From positions 1-23,225 of the IMG/VR virus record IMGVR_UViG_3300044634_000656: 23,225 nucleotides of DNA; one strand, written 5' to 3'. The DNA is from a virus. Position 1 is the stretch's first letter; every line of letters starts with the position of its first letter. Of this stretch, positions 3,575-21,378 are shown piece after piece. The position numbers and the translations under genes were made by a program. The notes under the pieces were generated by a model that worked only from the letters and a program-made list of their open reading frames with translations, was not told the DNA's origin and ran no database searches.

Positions 3575-4786
3575 ATGAACTACGAATTTCCTACTATCCG
3601 AAACATCTCTGATGTGCTGCCTGCAATCGAAGGTCGCGACGAATTCGTTGTGGCTGTCAAGGAAGGTTACACTGTCATCAACTACAATGTGATGATGGCT
3701 GACACGTTTCCTGATGTTCTAGATTCTTCTGATCTTCGTGCAAACCACGATCATTATGAGATCGAAAACCTTCATGCTCGACTTCGTCGTGAATGTCGTG
3801 GTATCATCTTTGATACTGCGACTGGCGAGATCATTCGTCGCCCGTTCCACAAGTTCTTCAACGTCAATGAGCGTGAAGAGACTCAGGACAATGTGGTCGA
3901 TCTGTCGCAGTTTCATACTATCCTTGAGAAGCTGGATGGCTCGATGATTGCTCCGTTTGTTGTGAACGATGAAATGATTTGGGGTACGAAGATGGGTGCT
4001 ACTGATGTGGCCAAGCCTGTCGAGAAGTTTATCGAAGACCATCCTAACTATCGTCAGTTTGCGAAGTTTGTAATCAGACGTGGATATACTCCTATCTTCG
4101 AATGGTGTTCGCGTAAGCAGCGTATTGTTCTTGACTACAAGGAAGATCAGTTGATTCTGACTGCCATGCGTGACATGACTACTGGTCGTTATATGTCTCG
4201 GGATATCATGATCAACACGGCTGATCAGTACTTTATCCCTGTTGTTAATGCATATGCTCCTCGGACCGATATGAGGGCTTTCCTCGAGTATGTTCGTGAT
4301 ATGGAAGACGTTGAAGGCTTTGTTGTTCGTTTCTCTGATGGTCACATGCTGAAACTGAAGTGCCATTGGTATCTGCAGATTCACAAGGCAAAGGAAGCCA
4401 TCCTTCAAGATCGTAACATCGTTGAGTTGATTCTTGACGATAAGCTCGATGACGTGAAGGCTCACTTGCCTCAGGAAGATCGTGATCGATTGACTGCGTT
4501 TGAGGGGGACTTTAATGCGGCTTTGCATCGACAGATAAAAGCGATTGCTGTGATTGTTGATACCCTAAATAAAAATCAAATTTCACGTAAAGATTTTGCG
4601 CTTTCTACTATGTCATCCAATATGCATTCTCATACTCGACCTATTGTATTCAAGAACTTTGAGGGTGCTACACAAGAGAAGATCGATGCTGATGTTCGTA
4701 ACACGATTCATAACAACTTGACCAAGACGGCAAAGTACGAAGCAATTCGTGATGCTTGGTTTCCTGGAGTGAAGTATAATGCCTGA
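3575..4786 (+). CDS. rnlA: RNA ligase 1 (T4 Rnl1 family)
   Basis: ATP-dependent ligase that seals 5'-phosphate and 3'-OH RNA ends. In T4 it repairs tRNA cut by host anticodon nucleases. The 403 residues hold the nucleotidyltransferase motifs in order: motif I K119-L-D-G-S, with K119 the predicted AMP-accepting lysine; motif III-like PIFEWCSRKQRIVLDY; motif IV VEGFVVRF; and motif V LKLKCHWY. An upstream RRECRGIIFD matches the N-terminal arginine motif of Rnl1. The C-terminal domain is T4-like in size. GAGG at 3566-3569 serves the start. The gene overlaps the following 5' kinase by 8 bases, a pairing that fits an RNA-repair operon. Expression starts from the promoter at 3449 through a structured leader. 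Confidence 0.93.
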   Translation: MNYEFPTIRNISDVLPAIEGRDEFVVAVKEGYTVINYNVMMADTFPDVLDSSDLRANHDHYEIENLHARLRRECRGIIFDTATGEIIRRPFHKFFNVNEREETQDNVVDLSQFHTILEKLDGSMIAPFVVNDEMIWGTKMGATDVAKPVEKFIEDHPNYRQFAKFVIRRGYTPIFEWCSRKQRIVLDYKEDQLILTAMRDMTTGRYMSRDIMINTADQYFIPVVNAYAPRTDMRAFLEYVRDMEDVEGFVVRFSDGHMLKLKCHWYLQIHKAKEAILQDRNIVELILDDKLDDVKAHLPQEDRDRLTAFEGDFNAALHRQIKAIAVIVDTLNKNQISRKDFALSTMSSNMHSHTRPIVFKNFEGATQEKIDADVRNTIHNNLTKTAKYEAIRDAWFPGVKYNA

Positions 4787-5261
4787 ATGTATAATGTTAG
4801 TTGGTGTGCCTGCGTCTGGTAAGTCTACTTGGCAGTACAAAAAGTACGGAGAATACCCGCCGATTGTGGCGTCAACTGATAACATAATCCAAGAAGTAGC
4901 TAGCAGCTATGGCATGACATATGATGAAGGATTCAAGGGACTTATTCAGTTTGCCGAACAGATAATGTGGAGGCAAATTACTACATGTCTGGTGCGCGGA
5001 AATGATTTTATTATCGACCGCACTAATCTGACTGCAAAGTCTCGTGCTAAGTTCATTCAGAAGTTGAAGTTGCATCGCTATGAGATCGAGGCTATTGTGT
5101 TTCCTGAGGTTGGGTCGGAAGCTCTTCCTAAAGAAGAGTGGAAGCGTCGCCTGAATTCACGCCGAGGCAAGACCATTCCTCAGGAAGTTCTTGATAAGAT
5201 GATCGATAGTTATGAGATTCCTCTCATGTCAGAAGGTTTTGATAAAATTACATTTGTGTGA
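4779..5261 (+). CDS. Polynucleotide 5'-kinase (T4 PNK kinase domain only)
   Basis: P-loop kinase expected to phosphorylate 5'-OH ends of RNA or DNA. Residues 9-17 are the P-loop GVPASGKST, D34 in STDNI matches the catalytic Asp of T4 PNK, and IDRTNLTAKSR corresponds to DTNLNPERR. RRLNSRRGKTIPQEVLDKM matches the T4 stretch carrying the key Arg (NSKRG). The protein is 160 residues and has no HAD phosphatase domain, whereas T4 PseT has about 301 residues with both. The phosphatase role may be filled by the HAD protein at 10666. It overlaps the ligase gene and lacks a separate promoter. Confidence 0.9.
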   Translation: MPECIMLVGVPASGKSTWQYKKYGEYPPIVASTDNIIQEVASSYGMTYDEGFKGLIQFAEQIMWRQITTCLVRGNDFIIDRTNLTAKSRAKFIQKLKLHRYEIEAIVFPEVGSEALPKEEWKRRLNSRRGKTIPQEVLDKMIDSYEIPLMSEGFDKITFV

Positions 5262-5270
5262 AAATAACTG

Positions 5271-5297
5271 TGTACATAATATGCAATTTAGTATAAA
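5271..5297 (+). promoter_or_regulatory. Possible sigma70-type promoter
   Basis: TGTACA (5271-5276) and TATAAA (5292-5297) are separated by only 15 bases, so the -35 is weak. The -10 ends eight bases before the ATG at 5306, which would leave a leader of zero to two nucleotides. Confidence 0.5.
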
Positions 5298-5305
5298 AGA
5301 AGATT

Positions 5306-5929
5306 ATGACAAAATTTGTAAACAGATTCGTTGTTTCTGATCACCACCTCGGTCATCAGAACTCGTGGGAAAAGTTCAAGCTAGAGGATGGCAGCCCTCT
5401 CCGTCCGTTCACCTCTAACGAGGAAATGAACGAGACTATGATCGAGCGTCACAACGCGAAGGTCAAGGAGCAGGACACTGTCTACTTCCTGGGTGATGTG
5501 GTAATCAACAAGAAGTATCTCGAGCTGGTAAAGCGGATGAATGGTCGTAAGATCCTTGTTCGTGGCAACCACGACATCTTCAAGGATAACGATTACCGCG
5601 ATGTTGGTTTCGAACAACTTCATGGTGTTCGTGTGTTTGTAGATAAGTTCATCCTGAGTCATATACCTCTGCATCCTGACTGCGTGACAGAACGGTTCCG
5701 TGTCAACGTACATGGCCATCTCCATGCGAATGAGGTTATGAGTTGGCAAGTTATCGACGAGGATATTGTCTATAAGCCAGATCCTCGCTATCTTTGTGTC
5801 TGCGTTGAACAAACCGATTTCACTCCTCTTCACTTTGACGAGGTTGAACAAAGAATCCAACAACGTTGGAAGGATGCGGAATATGAAGGTCCCGCAAAAG
5901 CATGGGGTAATGGAAGTGGTCCAGGTTAA
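5306..5929 (+). CDS. Calcineurin-like metallophosphoesterase
   Basis: A two-metal phosphoesterase of 207 residues. The metal-binding blocks appear in order: D12-x-H14, GDVV at 63-66, GNHD at 87-90, H119 and HGHLH at 136-140. The family cleaves phosphomonoesters or diesters of nucleotides and nucleic acids, and the substrate cannot be read from the sequence. Its position after RNA ligase and 5' kinase makes an RNA-end or cyclic-phosphate repair role worth considering, but this is inference. No good Shine-Dalgarno precedes the ATG, and the possible promoter at 5271 would make the mRNA nearly leaderless. The C-terminus is Gly/Pro-rich and probably flexible. Confidence 0.9.
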   Translation: MTKFVNRFVVSDHHLGHQNSWEKFKLEDGSPLRPFTSNEEMNETMIERHNAKVKEQDTVYFLGDVVINKKYLELVKRMNGRKILVRGNHDIFKDNDYRDVGFEQLHGVRVFVDKFILSHIPLHPDCVTERFRVNVHGHLHANEVMSWQVIDEDIVYKPDPRYLCVCVEQTDFTPLHFDEVEQRIQQRWKDAEYEGPAKAWGNGSGPG

Positions 5930-9889: not shown

Positions 9890-10624
9890 ATGAGTGCAGC
9901 ATCTGACAAGTACGAAAAAGACGTAGCCGACAATATCAATAGTATTCCTGGTGTTACAGCTACGCGTCCTCCTGGTGCTACTGACTTATCTGATGTTAAA
10001 ATCACTTCCTATAATAATAGACGTATTGATAAAGTTTGGGTAGAAGTCAAGATGTCGCACACCGACAATCTATCTAATCCTCGTGTATTTTATAGTGATG
10101 GTAAGTGGCAAACAACATATAAAACTCCAGCTGCTGCCGAAGCAGTTAAGATTTTGAACTCATCAGCTAAAGCAAAGCAGTTCATTAAAGACATTTCTAA
10201 ATACTCTGGTATTCCTGAGAAAGTGATTAAGATTCCTACCAGCAAAGGTGGGTTAAATGAACCTGGTGCCGTTCCATTACACGTTATGAAATCTTATTTC
10301 TCTCAGTCAAACATTAATCGTTATATTGCTAATGAACCTGGTATGAATCTAGGTGCACTTGTAACTCGCCACTATTTAGAAGGCAAAAGAGAACCAGCAT
10401 ACTACATGCAAGCTGGAGACGACTTTTACATGATTGGTAAAGGTAATCCGCTTGGGCTTAACACCGCCATTCCAGTTTTATCTGGAGAAGGTGACTTTAA
10501 AGTTCGTGTATCGACTCGCTCGCAATTTTATGAAGTTCAGGCTGAGATTAAGATCACCAAAATGCCTGATAGCAAATATTCGGTCAAGCCAGGAACTGCG
10601 AAAAAAAATCCATTTTTACGCTAA
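9890..10624 (+). CDS. PD-(D/E)XK nuclease-like protein
   Basis: A 244-residue protein. D35 in DLSDVKI followed by E52-V-K54 in VWVEVKM, seventeen residues later, gives the D...ExK signature of restriction-endonuclease-like folds, and YEKDVADNIN supplies an N-terminal helix with a Glu. The following HTDNLSNPRVFY also fits the conserved strand-helix core. Such enzymes in phages degrade host DNA, resolve branched DNA or act in packaging. The target here is unknown. AGGAG lies five bases before ATG. The C-terminus is basic. It stands alone between a late promoter/terminator block and the sigma70-type promoter at 10631. Confidence 0.68.
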   Translation: MSAASDKYEKDVADNINSIPGVTATRPPGATDLSDVKITSYNNRRIDKVWVEVKMSHTDNLSNPRVFYSDGKWQTTYKTPAAAEAVKILNSSAKAKQFIKDISKYSGIPEKVIKIPTSKGGLNEPGAVPLHVMKSYFSQSNINRYIANEPGMNLGALVTRHYLEGKREPAYYMQAGDDFYMIGKGNPLGLNTAIPVLSGEGDFKVRVSTRSQFYEVQAEIKITKMPDSKYSVKPGTAKKNPFLR

Positions 10625-10665: not shown

Positions 10666-11271
10666 ATGAAAAAGATAAACAGATTTAAAAACTTCATTGG
10701 TTCCGGAACTCTCACGATCTTTGATATCGATGAGACGCTCTTTCATACCAAAGCCAAAGTTGCTGTAGTAAAGGATGGCAAAGTTGTTCGGATGTTGGAC
10801 AACCAGGAATTCAATACCTACAAACGTAAGGCCGGTGAAGAATACGACTTCAGAGAGTTTGCATCTGCTGAGGTGTTTCGTAAGACCTCTACACCAATCG
10901 TTCGGATGATTAACAAGGCCAAGGCCATTGTCAAAGCCAAAAAGAACGTTCATAGCCGAGCAATTATTGTAACGGCTCGAGCTGACTTTGACGATAAGGA
11001 AATGTTCCTTCAGACTTTCCGCGATCATGGTCTTCCAATCGACTCAATGCACGTTGAGCGTTCAGGTAATCTAGGAATGGATTCACCTGCTGAAGCAAAG
11101 AAAGTTGTGTTTCGCAAATACCTAAATACTCAAAACTACACTAAAACTCGTTTATACGACGATGCGATGAGTAACCTGAAGGCATTCCTGGAACTCCAAA
11201 AGGAATACCCTAATGTTAAATTCGAAGCTTATTTCGTGAAACCAGATGGATCGATAAAGACAATCAAATGA
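10666..11271 (+). CDS. HAD-family phosphatase, RNA-repair type
   Basis: A 201-residue HAD hydrolase. Motif I is D20-I-D22-E-T, motif II lies in IIVTARADF, a lysine in AKKVVFRKYL fits motif III, and motif IV is YDDA. This DxDxT class includes the 3'-phosphatase domain of T4 PseT and the HAD domains of proteins nicknamed Swiss Army Knife RNA repair proteins. With the kinase at 4779 it could complete a split PNK, though 6 kb apart. The N-terminus carries an RFKNFI motif like the two tagged proteins below, but no Glu at a cleavage position. It starts without a Shine-Dalgarno at the predicted transcription start and overlaps the next gene (ATGA), so it leads a coupled operon. Confidence 0.85.
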   Translation: MKKINRFKNFIGSGTLTIFDIDETLFHTKAKVAVVKDGKVVRMLDNQEFNTYKRKAGEEYDFREFASAEVFRKTSTPIVRMINKAKAIVKAKKNVHSRAIIVTARADFDDKEMFLQTFRDHGLPIDSMHVERSGNLGMDSPAEAKKVVFRKYLNTQNYTKTRLYDDAMSNLKAFLELQKEYPNVKFEAYFVKPDGSIKTIK

Positions 11272-12437
11272 CAGCATTTAAAAATTTCCTTACAGAAGAA
11301 GCCAGCGAAGAAAAGCTGAAGCACCTCGAACACGCAGAAGATCATGTGATTAATGCTGGTGGCGAGGGTTTCTCGCATGCCTATCACAATCTCAAAGATG
11401 TGCATGACAGACTAACTGGTAAAGATAATGCCACTAAGGTAACCATGAAGTATGATGGTTCACCTTCTGTTGTGTTTGGTCGCCATCCAGAAACTGGTAA
11501 GTTCTTTGTGGCTTCCAAGTCTGCATTCAATAAGAATCCAAAGATCAACTATACGCATGAAGATATTCAGCGTAATCATGGTCACGCGCCTGGTCTTGTT
11601 GAAAAGCTCAAAGCAGCTCTCGATCACCTGCCAAAGGTAACTCCAAAGAAGGGTGTGTTCCAAGGTGATATCATGCATACACCAAATGATGTGCACGAGT
11701 CTGGCAACAAGATTCACTTTACTCCGAATACCATTACATATTCTGCTGACAAGAATTCACCTCATGGCAAAGCTGCTTCGAGATCTAAAATTGGCGTGGC
11801 TGTTCATACCAAGTACAATGGTAAGAACCTCGAGGATATGAAAGCTGAGTATGCTCCGAATCTTGATGAGTTTGGTCTTCATAAAGACGTTCACCTGATT
11901 TCAACTGAGCATGACATGTCTGGTATTGATTACAAGCCTCAGCATCAAACTAGGTTTGTAAAGCATATGGCAGCCGCTGCTAAGCTTCATGCTAAGACTG
12001 GTCCAGAAACTCATGCTGCTATTGAGAGCCACCGTATTCCTTTGAAGACGTATATCAACCATACAGTTCGTACTGGTACCAAGCCAAACGTAAACGAGTT
12101 TATGGCTCACCTTGCTAAGTCTCATCAGAAAAAAGTTGATTCTGTTAAGACAGATAAAGCTAAAGCTATGAAAACGGCTGCTATGGAAAGTGATGTAGCT
12201 CACATTCAACGTAATCGTGGTCATTTTGAGCGTGTTCTTCAGATGCATAGCCATTTGCAAAAAGCCAAGGATGTATTGGCTAACACACTCTCGAGCCACG
12301 CTGAGTTCGACCATAGTATTAATGGTAAGAAATCTAAGCCTGAAGGATTTGTTGTAGTAAGACATAATCGTCCTACTAAGATCGTAGATCGTGCTGAGTT
12401 CTCGGCTGCTAACTTTAATAGGGACAAAGCACTATGA
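11268..12437 (+). CDS. Ligase-like nucleotidyltransferase with capsid-targeting N-terminus
   Basis: A 389-residue protein of a family common in T4-like cyanophages and usually left unnamed. It carries the landmarks of covalent nucleotidyltransferases (DNA/RNA ligases, capping enzymes): K61-Y-D-G-S as motif I, R72 soon after, GVFQGDI near 129-135 as motif III, PEGFVVV at 358-364 as motif IV and TKIVDR at 370-375 as motif V. Motif I lacks the Arg of DNA ligases (KxDGxR) and is closer to RNA-ligase forms. Residues 1-10 (MTAFKNFLTE) align with the T4 internal-protein capsid-targeting peptide (MKTYQEFIAE) and end at an LxE cleavage site. His-rich overall. It overlaps genes on both sides, consistent with coupled synthesis. 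Enzyme activity is inferred, not shown. Confidence 0.75.
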   Translation: MTAFKNFLTEEASEEKLKHLEHAEDHVINAGGEGFSHAYHNLKDVHDRLTGKDNATKVTMKYDGSPSVVFGRHPETGKFFVASKSAFNKNPKINYTHEDIQRNHGHAPGLVEKLKAALDHLPKVTPKKGVFQGDIMHTPNDVHESGNKIHFTPNTITYSADKNSPHGKAASRSKIGVAVHTKYNGKNLEDMKAEYAPNLDEFGLHKDVHLISTEHDMSGIDYKPQHQTRFVKHMAAAAKLHAKTGPETHAAIESHRIPLKTYINHTVRTGTKPNVNEFMAHLAKSHQKKVDSVKTDKAKAMKTAAMESDVAHIQRNRGHFERVLQMHSHLQKAKDVLANTLSSHAEFDHSINGKKSKPEGFVVVRHNRPTKIVDRAEFSAANFNRDKAL

Positions 12438-13045
12438 AGTCGATTCATATCACTCAAGGAAGATTCAATCCAGTGCATGCTGGCCACGAGATGGTCGTTA
12501 GACATGTAATGGGTGCTGCTCAAAAGGAAGGTGCGGATCATAAGATTCTAACTACGGGATCTCATGATGCCAAGAAGAATCCGCTGACTCCTGAGCAAAA
12601 GGTAAAGCATCTTTCTCGTGCTGTCAAAGGTTCTCATGTCGAGGCTATGACAAAGGACCATCCTACACTTCTTCATCAGATGTCTAAGCTACACAAAGCT
12701 GGTTACTCACACGTAACTATGCATGTTGGCTCAGATCGTGTCCACGAGTTTCATAACTTGTTACACAAGTACAATGGAACTGAAGGGAGACATGGACACT
12801 ACAATTTCAAGAGCATTAAAGTCAAGTCTGTAGGCGGTGAACGCAAAGAAGGTGGCGGTGGAATCGAATCTGCTTCTGGTACTGCAATGCGTAAACATGC
12901 CACTGCTGGTGATAAAGAATCATTCCACAAGATGGCTCCATCTGGCATGAGCAAAGCGCATAAAGATGAATTGTATCATGATGTTCGTAAGGGTATGGGT
13001 ATCCACGAGTCATTCATTGCAAGATTTAAGAACTGGATTAATTAA
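12434..13045 (+). CDS. HxGH nucleotidylyltransferase
   Basis: A 203-residue member of the nucleotidylyltransferase superfamily. GRFNPVHAGH at residues 9-18 holds the HxGH signature, GSDR at 99-102 and ASGTAMR at 147-153 correspond to the substrate and ATP-binding (ISSTxxR-like) motifs. Relatives transfer a nucleotidyl group to phosphate acceptors, for example nicotinamide mononucleotide adenylyltransferase or cytidylyltransferases. The acceptor here cannot be told. Its coupling to a ligase-like enzyme invites the idea of NAD supply or of a nucleotide modification, as inference. The C-terminus ends in SFIARFKNWIN, echoing the FKNF motif of neighbours. ATGA overlap upstream and TAATG overlap downstream. 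Confidence 0.85.
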   Translation: MKSIHITQGRFNPVHAGHEMVVRHVMGAAQKEGADHKILTTGSHDAKKNPLTPEQKVKHLSRAVKGSHVEAMTKDHPTLLHQMSKLHKAGYSHVTMHVGSDRVHEFHNLLHKYNGTEGRHGHYNFKSIKVKSVGGERKEGGGGIESASGTAMRKHATAGDKESFHKMAPSGMSKAHKDELYHDVRKGMGIHESFIARFKNWIN

Positions 13046-14468: not shown

Positions 14469-15992
14469 ATGGAAGATAAGAAGAATAAACCGGTACCAGA
14501 AAAGAATATCAAGAAGCCTACGGGCAAATCTGCAACTGGTAAACCACTAGACGGCATTGAAATCAATCCTCAGCTAGATGACAAGCGCCGTACAAACGAG
14601 GACTTTGCCGTCCTAACCGCGTCCCTTCAGGAACGTAAAGCTCTTACAATCGTTCAACGCCAACAAAGAGCTCGCCAACTCAAGCGTATAGAACCAAAGC
14701 TGAAGAGAGCAAAAGAAGTCTCTCAAGCAAAACTTGCTGGTCCAAAAAAACTGCAAGCAAGAGCAGAAGCAAAAGCACGTTCACTACTCAAGAAAAGATT
14801 CTCGGCTCGCAAGGATATTCCTTACGCAGAGCTGACAACCGCTGAGAAGATTCAGGTAGATACAGCAGTTGCTAAGAAAACAAATCTCATTAAGAGACTT
14901 GCATCTAGACTTCTACCGAAGCTAAGAAAAGCAGAATTTGAAAGACTTAAGTCTTTTCATAGTGGAGCTCAAATGAAGAGTCTCCATACTGTAGTAGCAG
15001 CAGAAGAATTTTCTGGTCTGTTTAATGATCTGAACGATAAGTCAACACTTGAACTGGTTGACATCATTGAGAATGCGATTGCTAAGTTTGAAAGAGAAAG
15101 CAATCCAATTAGCATTACTCTTCGTAGAATGCTAAACTCTACAGTCGGCACAGATTCTATTACAGAAACACTTATCAAAAAAGCTGAAAAGACTGGCATC
15201 CCGTTCTCGACTTTGAAAGAAGTATTCGAGCGCGGTGCTTCGCTATATGAAGAAGACGATCGCCAGTCAAGAGATCAGGTTGCATTCAATCGAGTCAATA
15301 GCTATATTGCCAAAGGCAGAGCTTGGACTCTTGATGCAGACCTTCGTGAAGAAAAGAATGTCAATGAAGAACTTGACAATGCTTTCAAATCACTTCTAGA
15401 AAAGAATGGCATGTGCGGTCAAGAAGTTGTTGATCGTCCACCACCAAGTCAAAAGGTAAAGAGACGCCAGCAAGAGATTCAAAAGAAGATCATCGACGAA
15501 TCAAATAATACACCTTATGTAAAGCCATTTGTTGAAAAAGGAAGCACAACACAGCGCGGCTGGAAAGCTTCAAACAAGCATGGCAAGGTCAAGTACTTTG
15601 GCATGGACTTTAAGGCTTCAGCACATAAGCATGCTGGCATCTCAGAAGATACAGCTGACAAGAGAGAAATTGGCACAGACTCTCTAACAAAGAAGTACAA
15701 GAAAGATACTCCGGGCCAAGATAATTCTAGCCTCAATGAAACATTCAATATGGCTTGGACAGCTGGTATTGGTGTAACTCTTTCTGCAGAAGAATGCGGC
15801 ATCAAAATGAAACCAGCATTTGAACTTCATCCAGATGTAGTTGATGCAATGGAAGAAGTTCGTTCTGCTGATGTTGAAGGTGTAGTTGTTAGAACCGGCG
15901 ATGGTAAAACAATTGTACGTAAGCAAAAGAGAAACAAAAAGATTATTGGAACCGGTAACTTAACAGATGGGAAGCCAGATGATACGGTTTAA
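14469..15992 (+). CDS. Head-associated or structural protein, unknown
   Basis: A 507-residue protein under a late promoter. Residues 1-170 are highly charged and basic with long helices (rich in KRIEPKLKRAKE-like stretches). Residues about 235-300 hold IPFSTLKEVFERGASLYEED and AFNRVNSYIAKGRAW, a pattern I have seen as a small conserved domain in many phage proteins. The region after 330 is basic and low in hydrophobic residues. Such a composition suits a DNA-contacting or internal head protein, but no enzyme motif is visible. AAGGG is eight bases before ATG. The 3' end overlaps the next gene by 14 bases. Confidence 0.7.
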   Translation: MEDKKNKPVPEKNIKKPTGKSATGKPLDGIEINPQLDDKRRTNEDFAVLTASLQERKALTIVQRQQRARQLKRIEPKLKRAKEVSQAKLAGPKKLQARAEAKARSLLKKRFSARKDIPYAELTTAEKIQVDTAVAKKTNLIKRLASRLLPKLRKAEFERLKSFHSGAQMKSLHTVVAAEEFSGLFNDLNDKSTLELVDIIENAIAKFERESNPISITLRRMLNSTVGTDSITETLIKKAEKTGIPFSTLKEVFERGASLYEEDDRQSRDQVAFNRVNSYIAKGRAWTLDADLREEKNVNEELDNAFKSLLEKNGMCGQEVVDRPPPSQKVKRRQQEIQKKIIDESNNTPYVKPFVEKGSTTQRGWKASNKHGKVKYFGMDFKASAHKHAGISEDTADKREIGTDSLTKKYKKDTPGQDNSSLNETFNMAWTAGIGVTLSAEECGIKMKPAFELHPDVVDAMEEVRSADVEGVVVRTGDGKTIVRKQKRNKKIIGTGNLTDGKPDDTV

Positions 15993-16278
15993 GAATTTCA
16001 TTTCAGAAGCTCGTGGCGAAGATTCTAAGGGTCACTATAGATCCACAGAGTCTGGCGCAGGTATGACTCAAAAAGGGATTGAAGCTGTTCGCAGAGATAA
16101 TCCCGGATCGAAGATTCAAACAGCTGTAACTGGTAAAGTCAAGCCTGGATCGAAGGATGCCAAGAGACGTAAGTCTTTCTGTGCTCGTATGGGTGGCATG
16201 CCAGGACCAATGAAAGATGAGAAGGGGCGTCCTACACGTAAGGCAATGTCACTTCGTAGATGGAGATGTAGAACATAA
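15979..16278 (+). CDS. Small basic protein with capsid-targeting N-terminus
   Basis: A 99-residue, strongly basic protein. Residues 1-12 MIRFKNFISEAR match the T4 IPIII opening (MKTYQEFIAEAR), including the IxE-A cleavage junction, so the mature form would be about 89 residues starting ARGEDSKG. The C-terminal block KRRKSFCARMGGMPGPM continuing to LRRWRC is a small conserved domain found in many T4-like phage proteins. I read it as an internal head protein, packaged with and probably bound to DNA. The ATG at 15979 is preferred to 15967 because GGGAAG lies just upstream and the match to the targeting peptide starts at this Met. A TAATG overlap joins it to the Dps gene. Confidence 0.8.
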   Translation: MIRFKNFISEARGEDSKGHYRSTESGAGMTQKGIEAVRRDNPGSKIQTAVTGKVKPGSKDAKRRKSFCARMGGMPGPMKDEKGRPTRKAMSLRRWRCRT

Positions 16279-17311: not shown

Positions 17312-18943
17312 ATGTTTACAAAGAAACTCGAAGATCAATTTTCTGCCGACCTTCTGAATACCGTAAAAGGTATTCTAGGCGAGGCCAAGAAATGCCCAAA
17401 AGATTGTGAATGCGAAAAATGTGAAAAAGAAGATGATGAAGAAGAAGATGACAAGGAAGAAATGAAGGAAGGCAAGCGTGGCCTATGGGATAACATCCAT
17501 GCCAAGCGTAAGAGAATCAAAGCAGGATCTGGTGAGCGTATGCGTAAGCCCGGATCTGAAGGTGCTCCTACAAATGCTGACTTTAAAGCCGCAAGTGAAG
17601 GTGTAATGCCAACCGCTGACGAACCAACTGAAGCAAATAAAAAGACTGCTCAAAAGGTTCGTGATATGATGGCAAAAGAAAAGAAGCCAGTCAAGGAAGA
17701 AGCTGAGCAGGTTGACGAAGTTTCGAAAGCTACACTTGGCCGCTATATCAATAAAGCTAAAGATTCTATTGATATGGCTTCGTATAGACAAGGGCACAAA
17801 GAAGCTCACGGCAGTTCTTCGAAACCACTTGAAAAGAAACTGACAAAGCGTCATAAAGGTATTTCGACTGCTGTAAGCAAACTGACAAAAGAAGATGCAG
17901 AGCAGATTGATGAGCTTTCGACTGAAAAACTTCTTGCATATCGTAAAAAAGCAAGAGAAGCCGATACAAATAAGCATCATGTGTATGCTGATGAAGCAGA
18001 TAAAAAGATCAAAAAGAAAACAGGTGTTTATAATCCAAGTCTTCTGCAACGTGCTAAAGCCAAACTTCGCAATGAAGATGCCGAGCAGATCGATGAACTC
18101 TCGAAGGGAACAATGGGCCGTTACATCAATAAGGCTGCCACAAAAATGGGCAGTCAAGGTGTTACAGCTGGCCTGAAGATTGCTGCAGACGAAAAGTCAA
18201 GCAAGAACTTCAAGGACATGGGCAAGCGCGAAAAAGGCATTAAACTTGCTGTGAGCAAACTGACCAAGGAAGAGCAAGACTTTATTGATTCGCTGAATGT
18301 TGATACACTTGAAGAAGCAAACATGTGGCATGTTCAACTAAATGGCAAGCGTGTATCAAAGCATTTTGATTCTGAAGATCGTGCAAAGAAGTTTGCTGAA
18401 TACGGTAGCGATACTCGAAAGGGCAAATGGTCAGTTCATAAGAGCATGGCAGAAGAAGTAGAAATTGATGAAGGTAATACCAGCCCAGAAATCAAAAAAG
18501 CTTATGCCGATCTTTTAAAGACACCAGGTGGATCACCTGAACGTAAAGCTGCGGTTCGCCATTACAAGAGCTTGCGCCAGAATCTTGCTAAAGAAGAAGT
18601 AGAACTTGAAGAAGGTCGTGGCCGTCCACCAAAGGAAGGTTCGGCTGCTTGGCATGCAAAGCAAAATCAAGCCAGCGACGATATGGTAGCTCTTGGTATG
18701 CAACTTCGTAAAGCCAAGTCGATGAACAAGAAAGTTCGTTTCATGGACAATAAGGAACATGAAATTTCTGCTAACCATGCAGATCGCTTTGAAGATCACA
18801 TGGCTGCTCGCAGAACTACTCAAGAAAAAGCTGCTTTCCAAAAGCAAGCTCATAAGTCACACGCAGAATTTGTCAAAGCTGTATCTGCTCCAGTTCCTAA
18901 GGCTTCGAAGGACACTGGCGAGATCGTAAGATATAGGCACTAA
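17312..18943 (+). CDS. Repeat-rich charged protein, possible prohead core protein
   Basis: A 543-residue, very charged protein. It begins with a helix ending L22-G-E24 before A25, then C28, C32, C34 and C37, then a run of Asp/Glu (about 38-51), then KRGLWDNIHAKRKRIKAGSG, a block that recurs in phage proteins. Three repeats with AEQ(V/I)DE(V/L)S start at residues 131, 196 and 257, and KGI..AVSKLTKE occurs twice. Many (L/I)xE sites are present. Length, charge and these sites resemble T4 scaffold and internal proteins that gp21 digests into peptides. AAAGGA (17298-17303) lies eight bases before ATG. No enzyme motif is seen. It could equally be a stable structural protein. Confidence 0.7.
   Translation: MFTKKLEDQFSADLLNTVKGILGEAKKCPKDCECEKCEKEDDEEEDDKEEMKEGKRGLWDNIHAKRKRIKAGSGERMRKPGSEGAPTNADFKAASEGVMPTADEPTEANKKTAQKVRDMMAKEKKPVKEEAEQVDEVSKATLGRYINKAKDSIDMASYRQGHKEAHGSSSKPLEKKLTKRHKGISTAVSKLTKEDAEQIDELSTEKLLAYRKKAREADTNKHHVYADEADKKIKKKTGVYNPSLLQRAKAKLRNEDAEQIDELSKGTMGRYINKAATKMGSQGVTAGLKIAADEKSSKNFKDMGKREKGIKLAVSKLTKEEQDFIDSLNVDTLEEANMWHVQLNGKRVSKHFDSEDRAKKFAEYGSDTRKGKWSVHKSMAEEVEIDEGNTSPEIKKAYADLLKTPGGSPERKAAVRHYKSLRQNLAKEEVELEEGRGRPPKEGSAAWHAKQNQASDDMVALGMQLRKAKSMNKKVRFMDNKEHEISANHADRFEDHMAARRTTQEKAAFQKQAHKSHAEFVKAVSAPVPKASKDTGEIVRYRH
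17702..18271 (+). repeat. Protein-level repeats in the 17312 gene
   Basis: Three diverged units begin at 17702, 17897 and 18080, each encoding AEQ(V/I)DE(V/L)S followed by a helix (two of them as GRYINKA). The first and third units also share a downstream KGI..AVSKLTKE block. The DNA has drifted more than the protein, so these are old internal duplications and not a recent tandem array. Confidence 0.8.
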
Positions 18944-20279: not shown

Positions 20280-20668
20280 TGATTGATAAACTTGATGAAA
20301 CAAACTTTTTGTTATACGCCGCTAAACATTATGATAACCCACAATGTTTTGATACACTTGAATTTTATGAGGATTTAGCTCGATTCAAGTATATCAAAAG
20401 ATTGTTTAATCGTTATGAAGAAACTGGTGAACTCAAAGAAAGACTGGTAATCAATCATTTGATTATTCTTTATAATGTATTTGGTCCACCTGCTACACGA
20501 ATGCTTTTCTTTAAGTTAGATGGTTATCATCATATGTTGAAACCATTCATTGTATTATTAGGACATATGCCTGATACAGTCAAAGGTATCGGGTTCCAGA
20601 ACAAAACCATATTTAGTTCAGACATTGCAATGGACGAGAATATAATCAAGATTCTAAGGAAGATCTAG
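20279..20668 (+). CDS. Conserved T4-like phage protein, unknown
   Basis: A 129-residue protein. NFLLYAAKHYDNPQCFDTLE and RFKYIKRLFNRYEETGELKE with LVINHLIILYNVFGPPATRM are strongly conserved-looking and typical of a family found across T4-like cyanophages. It is all helical. I do not know a function. Tight overlaps with both neighbours suggest a role in head or tail assembly, by context only. Confidence 0.8.
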   Translation: MIDKLDETNFLLYAAKHYDNPQCFDTLEFYEDLARFKYIKRLFNRYEETGELKERLVINHLIILYNVFGPPATRMLFFKLDGYHHMLKPFIVLLGHMPDTVKGIGFQNKTIFSSDIAMDENIIKILRKI

Positions 20669-21378
20669 TGGCTAATAAAGAAAAACAAGAGTACGACTAC
20701 GAAGGCGATATGGCTATGTCGCAACTCAAGTCTATCATTGCTAACGCTCAGCGTATGCATGATATGCTGAAGGTCGATACGAATCTTCCTGAATGGGTTC
20801 AGTCAAAGATCACGCTCGCAGAAGACTACATCACCACTGCATCAAATTACCTGCAAGGTGAGATGAATGAAGATGTCGACTCTTACGCTGATGCATTAAT
20901 AAGACGTAACAAACAAAATCTTAATAAAGGCCATGTTGTCAATGCGGCTCGTATTGCTGGTATGGATGGCAAGAAACTTATGGCCGCTGTGAATAAAAAA
21001 GTAGGTCGTATTAAAGAAGAAGTTGCTCACTCTGTACATGTTAAGACATATGACTCTCAGGGTGAAAAGCAAATGAACTCACCGGAGTTTAAAAAGCATA
21101 TTGAAGCACACGGTGGCAAATTGGATTATGCATCTGATAAAGGCGCAGCATTCAAGTTTGCTTCACACTCACACGCTGCAGCATTCCATCGTGGTGTTCA
21201 ATCAAAGTTTAAAGAACTTGATTCTGAGCATGATGTGCACGAAGAAGTTGCAGTGAATGCTGCTGGTGCTGGTAATGTTGCTGGTCTTGGTGTAGGTCCA
21301 CAAGGTGAACCGGGCGTGCACATGAAGAAAAAGAAGAAAGTAGTACTCGCGAGTTTCAAAAGATTTGCAAGGAAATAA
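20668..21378 (+). CDS. Conserved structural-region protein, GTG start
   Basis: A 236-residue protein whose GTG start shares one base with the previous stop; AAGGAAG lies just upstream. Residues 1-65 (SQLKSIIANAQRMHDML, LPEWVQSKITLAEDYITTAS) are a helical domain I have seen at the start of many T4-like cyanophage proteins. The middle contains HVKTYDSQGEK and a segment that reads as a small alpha/beta domain. The tail is GAGNVAGLGVGPQGEPG, then a Lys run, and ends SFKRFARK. Function unknown. A packaged or head-associated role would fit the location. Confidence 0.78.
   Translation: MANKEKQEYDYEGDMAMSQLKSIIANAQRMHDMLKVDTNLPEWVQSKITLAEDYITTASNYLQGEMNEDVDSYADALIRRNKQNLNKGHVVNAARIAGMDGKKLMAAVNKKVGRIKEEVAHSVHVKTYDSQGEKQMNSPEFKKHIEAHGGKLDYASDKGAAFKFASHSHAAAFHRGVQSKFKELDSEHDVHEEVAVNAAGAGNVAGLGVGPQGEPGVHMKKKKKVVLASFKRFARK

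Follow-up and report, generated by a model that had tools for sequence, protein, structure and literature searches.

A capsid-targeting-like peptide marks a DUF6267 protein of T4-like phages as a candidate head-packaged nucleotidyltransferase

Proteins that enter a cell together with a phage genome are normally known only through virion proteomics of cultured phages, and the locus described here raises the question of whether such a protein can be recognized in an uncultured virus from its sequence. The DNA in question covers positions 1 to 23,225 of the IMG/VR virus record IMGVR_UViG_3300044634_000656 (hereafter the window), a 23-kb fragment that is the entire record available for this phage. 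Its plus strand carries, at 11268..12437, the gene of a 389-aa protein (P0001), whose translated open reading frame starts with MTAFKNFLTE followed by EASEE (N-terminus MTAFKNFLTEEASEE). P0001 is a full-length member of DUF6267, a Pfam domain of unknown function that is widespread among T4-like phages infecting aquatic bacteria, since PF19782 matches residues 18-387 with an E value of 1.6e-101 and 340.8 bits (curated cut-off, 27), and the PHROG profile phrog_455 matches it with an E value of 1.5e-93. We propose, with a probability of roughly 0.6, that P0001 serves a T4-like phage as a cargo enzyme, which would carry a capsid-targeting sequence (CTS), be clipped, packed in the head and ejected, and work as a covalent-lysine nucleotidyltransferase of the ligase or capping-enzyme type.

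The proposal begins with the first ten residues. MTAFKNFLTE (11268..11297, plus strand) resembles the CTS of the T4 internal proteins (IPs), and a gp21-type cut is predicted to follow E10. In T4 IPIII, the N-terminal ten residues are enough for packaging, and CTS mutants, as reviewed, assign positions 4 and 7 mainly to targeting and positions 8 and 10 to processing (PMC9026906). Counted from Met1, a CTS has an aromatic or hydrophobic residue at 4, F at 7, I or L at 8 and E at 10; F4, F7, L8 and E10 of P0001 stand in register with all four functional positions. An earlier note, made from the sequence alone, had drawn the same in-register alignment, which proved correct; it had also given MKTYQEFIAE as the peptide of IPI-IPIII, which holds for ipII and ipIII (both MKTYQEFIAEA) but is wrong for ipI, which begins MKTFKEFTSTTTPVSTITEA, so that a peptide common to all three IPs was rejected. 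For the chance estimate, the pattern was [FYLIMW]xx[FYW][ILVMF]xE, with a background rate of 4.9e-4 per internal position. The chance of at least one tag among the 36 window genes is P = 0.018 and of at least two P = 1.5e-4, and the window holds two tags in register 4, on P0001 and on a DUF6321 protein (MIRFKNFISE). Taken alone, the P0001 match would lend little support (P about 0.02 per 36 genes); judged from the homologous sequences, it is conservation across lineages that lifts the tag above chance resemblance.

Homologs of P0001 occur in 471 phage records, nearly all of them T4-like phages of Synechococcus, Prochlorococcus, Pelagibacter and Methylophilales. When the tag was counted in five groups, each of about 80 loci, it was present in register 4 in 65 of the 78 window-like, 45 of the 79 C48C1-like and 43 of the 79 Melnitz-like DUF6267 proteins, as well as in 5/79 pelagiphage-like and 0/79 P-HM2-like ones. 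Three DUF6267 lineages at 30-55% identity retain it, with examples such as MENFADFITEQ and MINFSSFLTED. The pelagiphage proteins often bear a shorter form of the peptide (MELLNEDKNTHLEH), and the cyanophage proteins start directly at the core (MSKNTHLEHLED), the tag being lost and the core intact. The Pfam model PF19782 covers the core only, leaving the P0001 tag outside, and the cyanophage members sampled are without the tag. In the AlphaFold2 model of P0001 (70 homologs; mean pLDDT 92.2), residues 1-12 fall below 50, so the tag is an appendage. On the same low pLDDT, and because the cyanophage members begin at the core, the possibility that the tag belongs to the DUF6267 domain was rejected.

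The peptide is not confined to DUF6267. Near DUF6267 genes, 201 other genes, forming 14 single-linkage families, carry the tag at their first start codon, compared with only 3-14 genes at control offsets 16-61; a slightly looser pattern with finer clustering yields more than 20 tagged families. They include cytidylyltransferases (MIKNFSQYLLEEE), HAD phosphatases (MKSFKDYLIEESKGSLHVFDVDDTLF), P-loop kinases (MKTFKTFLDEG...GGPGSGKS) and nuclease-like proteins. At these loci, therefore, the peptide is common to unrelated proteins, just as the ten-residue N-terminal peptide of the T4 IPs and Alt (aromatic at 4, F7, I/L8, E10) is, and it is gained and lost within families, the behaviour to be expected from a sorting signal. 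P0001 differs from the IPs in being a larger conserved cargo with a predicted catalytic core and without homology to them, and its cleavage at E10 is a prediction only.

The tag correlates with virion detection in the published proteomes of related phages. In S-CREM2, whose virion proteins are listed in Table 3 of PMC10665884, the tagged virion proteins are gp6 (SAM hydrolase, MKDFDSFLEE), gp13 (MKDLHSFLTE), gp14 (kinase, (V)KRFDAFLTEE), gp136 (MQTFSMFFSE) and gp154 (cytidylyltransferase, MKNFSSFLTE). With the strict register and F only at position 7, the tag is found in 5/52 virion versus 0/167 other proteins (p 6e-4); permitting Y/W at position 7 brings in gp175 (p 0.003), and under the loosest pattern gp30 joins as well (p 0.009). 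Apart from the restriction of position 7 to F, the pattern was set before the proteomes were consulted, and p 0.003-0.009 is therefore the safer range. The virion NMNAT of S-SCSM1 (S-SCSM1_91; PMC9602691) begins MKSFLQFLKE, and the virion cytidylyltransferase of S-SZBM1 (S-SZBM1_140; PMC9146016) begins MRFRQFIIEA. When the three phages are pooled under the loose pattern, 7/127 virion versus 6/592 other proteins are tagged (p 0.003), with S-SCSM1 and S-SZBM1 giving one tagged virion protein each and the tagged and untagged proteins belonging to different families. Overall, reading the peptide as a targeting tag is well supported by its conservation, its separability from the fold, its recurrence on unrelated proteins and its correlation with virion detection, and P0001 itself is likely packaged in the virion.

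Having a probable location, what might P0001 do? It is predicted, with good though lesser confidence, to be a covalent nucleotidyltransferase. Five motifs lie on the plus strand: motif I, K61-Y-D-G (11448..11459), with the predicted nucleotide-accepting lysine; a motif Ia-like S83-K84 (11514..11519), matched by eye to K119 of T4 Rnl1; a motif III-like Q132-G-D134 (11661..11669; model strand 130-137), with Asp for the ligase Glu; motif IV, E359-G-F-V-V-V-R (12342..12362); and a motif V-like K371-I-V-D-R375 (12378..12392), which lacks the second K-x-K lysine. Across 70 diverse homologs, with identities falling to about 30%, eleven residues never vary (K61, D63, G64, K84, Q132, D134, E359, G360, V362, K371 and R375), V373 is also invariant, and the motifs are retained in shorter, distant forms of DUF6267. 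In the model, the motif IV E-G and the motif V lysine occupy consecutive strands (360-365 and 368-372). An alignment made by eye pairs K61-Y-D-G with K99-E-D-G of T4 Rnl1, S-K84 with S-K119, D134 with E159, E359-G-F-V-V-V with E227-G-Y-V-A-V, and K371-I-V373 with K240-I-K242; the spacing from the motif IV Glu to the motif V Lys is 12 in P0001 and 13 in T4 Rnl1. P0001 thus shares with T4 Rnl1 and other covalent nucleotidyltransferases the K-x-D-G, a downstream lysine, the motif III acid, E-G-(F/Y)-V-x-V and a lysine 12-13 residues on, whereas it differs from T4 Rnl1 in the motif III and motif V substitutions, in lacking detectable profile similarity and in having a helical block (~224-341) between motifs III and IV. 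Motifs I, III, IV and V had all been named in the earlier note, and all are present (K61-Y-D-G, Q132-G-D134, P-E359-G-F-V-V-V and K371); K84 of motif Ia had been overlooked.

The fold points weakly in the same direction. Ligases and capping enzymes make up 22 of the first 50 PDB hits of a Foldseek search with the whole model (best E value, 0.035). For the core fragment 19-218 (pLDDT 93), the four top hits are archaeal DNA ligases (E value 0.034, probability 0.77), and the first ten also contain T4 DNA ligase and a trypanosome RNA editing ligase. A ligase-like reading of P0001 is plausible on these motifs and hits.

Put together, these findings suggest the following course, in which the steps up to ejection are modelled on T4. 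Late in infection, the tag would bind the prohead core through F4 and F7 and draw P0001 in; a gp21-type protease would then clip it after E10, leaving a 379-residue enzyme loose in the head, which would be packed with the DNA and leave the head when the next cell is infected. In that cell, K61 may take up a nucleotide in a pocket formed by K84, D134, E359 and K371, as the invariant motifs and the weak fold similarity suggest. Along with a HAD phosphatase and a cytidylyltransferase, P0001 could make up a pre-made enzyme set for RNA or DNA ends or for nucleotides, available before phage gene expression.

Several observations weigh against this proposal. The second lysine of motif V, which is essential in T4 Rnl1 (K242), is absent, and the residue there, V373, is invariant. 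The Foldseek E values are 0.03 or worse, none of them significant, with TM-scores of 0.2-0.3, and hhalign comparisons with Rnl1, T4-type Rnl2 and DNA ligase alignments gave no signal. Similarly, a profile hidden Markov model of DUF6267 found no match among PDB sequences, and a Pfam scan of all 70 homologs found no ligase family. The nucleotidyltransferase assignment of the earlier note, which had called for comparison with ligase and capping-enzyme cores, thus keeps its invariant motifs and sees ligases rank first in the Foldseek lists, but it gains neither significance nor a profile signal. As for packaging, DUF6267 itself is in none of the three virion lists compared, all of them from phages in which it is untagged, S-CREM2 (gp87), S-SCSM1 (SSCSM1_257) and S-SZBM1 (SSZBM1_141); the Melnitz paper gives no proteome. 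The NMNAT-like cytidylyltransferases found in purified particles of these phages share with P0001 the N-terminal peptide and belong to a neighbour family of DUF6267, but they are a different enzyme family. Carry-over in virion detection is possible according to the authors of the S-CREM2 (PMC10665884) and S-SCSM1 (PMC9602691) studies, and SSCSM1_30, the S-SZBM1 ORF 122311-122640 and S-CREM2 gp175 are tagged but undetected in virions. One such counter-example is a small tagged protein encoded at 44215-44535 in S-SCSM1 (MKTFKQFMSESVNISGDFNGN), near the terminase genes, and at 122311-122640 in S-SZBM1 (MKSFKSFLSESVNISGDFNGN), which is not reported in virions. Finally, no gp21-type protease, for which the earlier note had advised a search, was found within the 23-kb window; it is present (PF03420, S77) in the 129-kb relative G002, in C48C1, in Melnitz and in seven other records, and G002, whose DUF6267 is 79% identical to P0001, also has a T4-type portal.

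The genes next to P0001 bear on what its chemistry might be. On its upstream side, a HAD-type phosphatase resembling polynucleotide kinase phosphatase (10666..11271, plus strand; phrog_415, E value 1e-6) has a stop that overlaps the P0001 start. Its N-terminus, MKKINRFKNFIGSG, resembles the tag but lacks the cleavage-site Glu, and its RFKNFIGSG is kept in close relatives as RF(K/R)(E/N)F(V/I)G(S/T)G; the complete tag is found on distant homologs (L069, MKSFKDYLIEESK; L078, MKRFSQFIAEAVQ). On the downstream side, the P0001 stop overlaps the start of a cytidylyltransferase/NMNAT-like protein (12434..13045, plus strand; PF01467, E value 3e-4; phrog_3041, E value 6e-45), N-tagged homologs of which are virion proteins in three cyanophages. 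In cyanophages, DUF6267, labelled 'T4-like GC 71', adjoins the cytidylyltransferase GC 190 as well as replication genes.

These surroundings lead to the strongest alternative, namely that P0001 is packaged and injected but serves nucleotide or NAD chemistry together with the NMNAT/cytidylyltransferase, for instance by restoring NAD+ or producing an activated nucleotide, instead of end joining. The two genes overlap in the window and are fused in PHROG 455 and in a 591-aa protein of S-PM2, and the cytidylyltransferase partner is repeatedly a virion protein annotated as NMNAT-like. However, K-x-D-G, E-G and K are the motifs typically seen in polynucleotide ligases and capping enzymes, and the phosphatase upstream is of the polynucleotide-kinase type; we regard this alternative as possible but doubtful. 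It is a good deal less likely that the peptide serves for docking to some other phage protein, such as the sliding clamp or a replisome or late-transcription factor, with the enzyme acting in the infected cell. Short hydrophobic-acidic peptides at protein ends do bind the T4 clamp, DUF6267 lies beside replication genes in cyanophages, and similar peptides are found at C-termini, but virions contain a tagged SAM hydrolase, kinase and cytidylyltransferase, and the register shared with the T4 CTS extends to the cleavage residues. Slightly less likely again, P0001 could be packaged and yet be catalytically dead or a structural, scaffold-filling core component, as could be true of certain T4 internal proteins. 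This would agree with the part that IPIII takes in T4 head assembly (PMC9026906) and with the weak fold and profile similarity to active ligases; however, the eleven motif residues are invariant also in untagged DUF6267 proteins that are absent from virion lists, which implies a catalytic site maintained independently of packaging. That the tag is a chance resemblance or the first helix of DUF6267 is already disfavoured and very improbable. In its favour, one register match in 36 genes would arise with P about 0.02; against it, residues 1-12 are poorly ordered in the model, cyanophage members begin at the core, and the peptide sits on unrelated families.

Further features of the window touch on the tag or the enzyme. 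The DUF6321 protein (15967..16278, plus strand; PF19846, E value 1.3e-18) begins with its tag if started at 15979, and its relatives keep the tag. The cytidylyltransferase at 12434-13045 reads ESFIARFKNWIN up to its stop (FIARFKNWIN), with FI(A/V/I)RFKNWI(N/S) in relatives, which is possibly a C-terminal version of the tag; C-terminal tags tested globally showed no enrichment, and this peptide is therefore only a lead. Similar C-termini are seen in the virion proteins S-CREM2 gp12 (annotated Cas9; TFRDFLN) and S-SCSM1_93 (TFKEFLEYIE). Residues 17-27 of the same gp12 (L473, 7704-10313; a CRISPR-associated endonuclease by annotation) read LRFASFMAEAA, which is tag-like. The product of 20668-21378 has a C-terminal module GVGPQGEPGVHMKKKKKVVLASFKRFARK, and its relatives terminate in MTFNRFMKK or MTFSRFMRK. 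A nuclease-like protein (9890-10624) is untagged, and its homologs in L349, L354 and L355 are N-tagged (MLTFKSYITESKAADQYEKDVADY). The product of 17312-18943 contains the repeats EEAEQVDEVSKATLGRYINKA, EDAEQIDELSTEKLLAYRKKA and EDAEQIDELSKGTMGRYINKA with many (I/V/L)xE sites and could be a prohead core protein that is cleaved repeatedly. The region 3575-5929 groups a polynucleotide kinase-like P-loop protein and a metallophosphoesterase with a separate RNA ligase of the Rnl1 type, and the phage therefore also has a conventional RNA-repair set. A sequence search of the PDB for the neighbours of P0001 returned no match, nor did PADLOC for P0001.

The CTS itself is already known, and a review by Black proposes it as a means of packaging varied proteins (PMC9026906). 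In the openly searchable papers, subscription papers being outside reach, DUF6267 is mentioned nowhere, and neither the tag on enzymes of aquatic T4-like phages, nor DUF6267 as its bearer, nor its match to cyanophage virion proteomes was found; on capsid targeting combined with cyanophages or marine phages, only T4 and giant-phage papers came up. More broadly, it seems an even bet that aquatic T4-like phages hold an island of rapidly swapped genes whose CTS-marked products (DUF6267, cytidylyltransferase, HAD phosphatase, kinases, nucleases, DUF6321 and others) enter with the DNA as a take-over and counter-defence kit for the first minutes, and that, from the peptide alone, a large part of the proteins injected by uncultured phages can be predicted. 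If this is true, a ten-residue peptide would let the injected enzymes of uncultured aquatic viruses be read from sequence, and puzzling virion enzymes such as the NMNAT-like proteins, the SAM hydrolase and the kinase would gain a packaging mechanism. DUF6267, a widespread family, would gain a testable location and a candidate active-site lysine.
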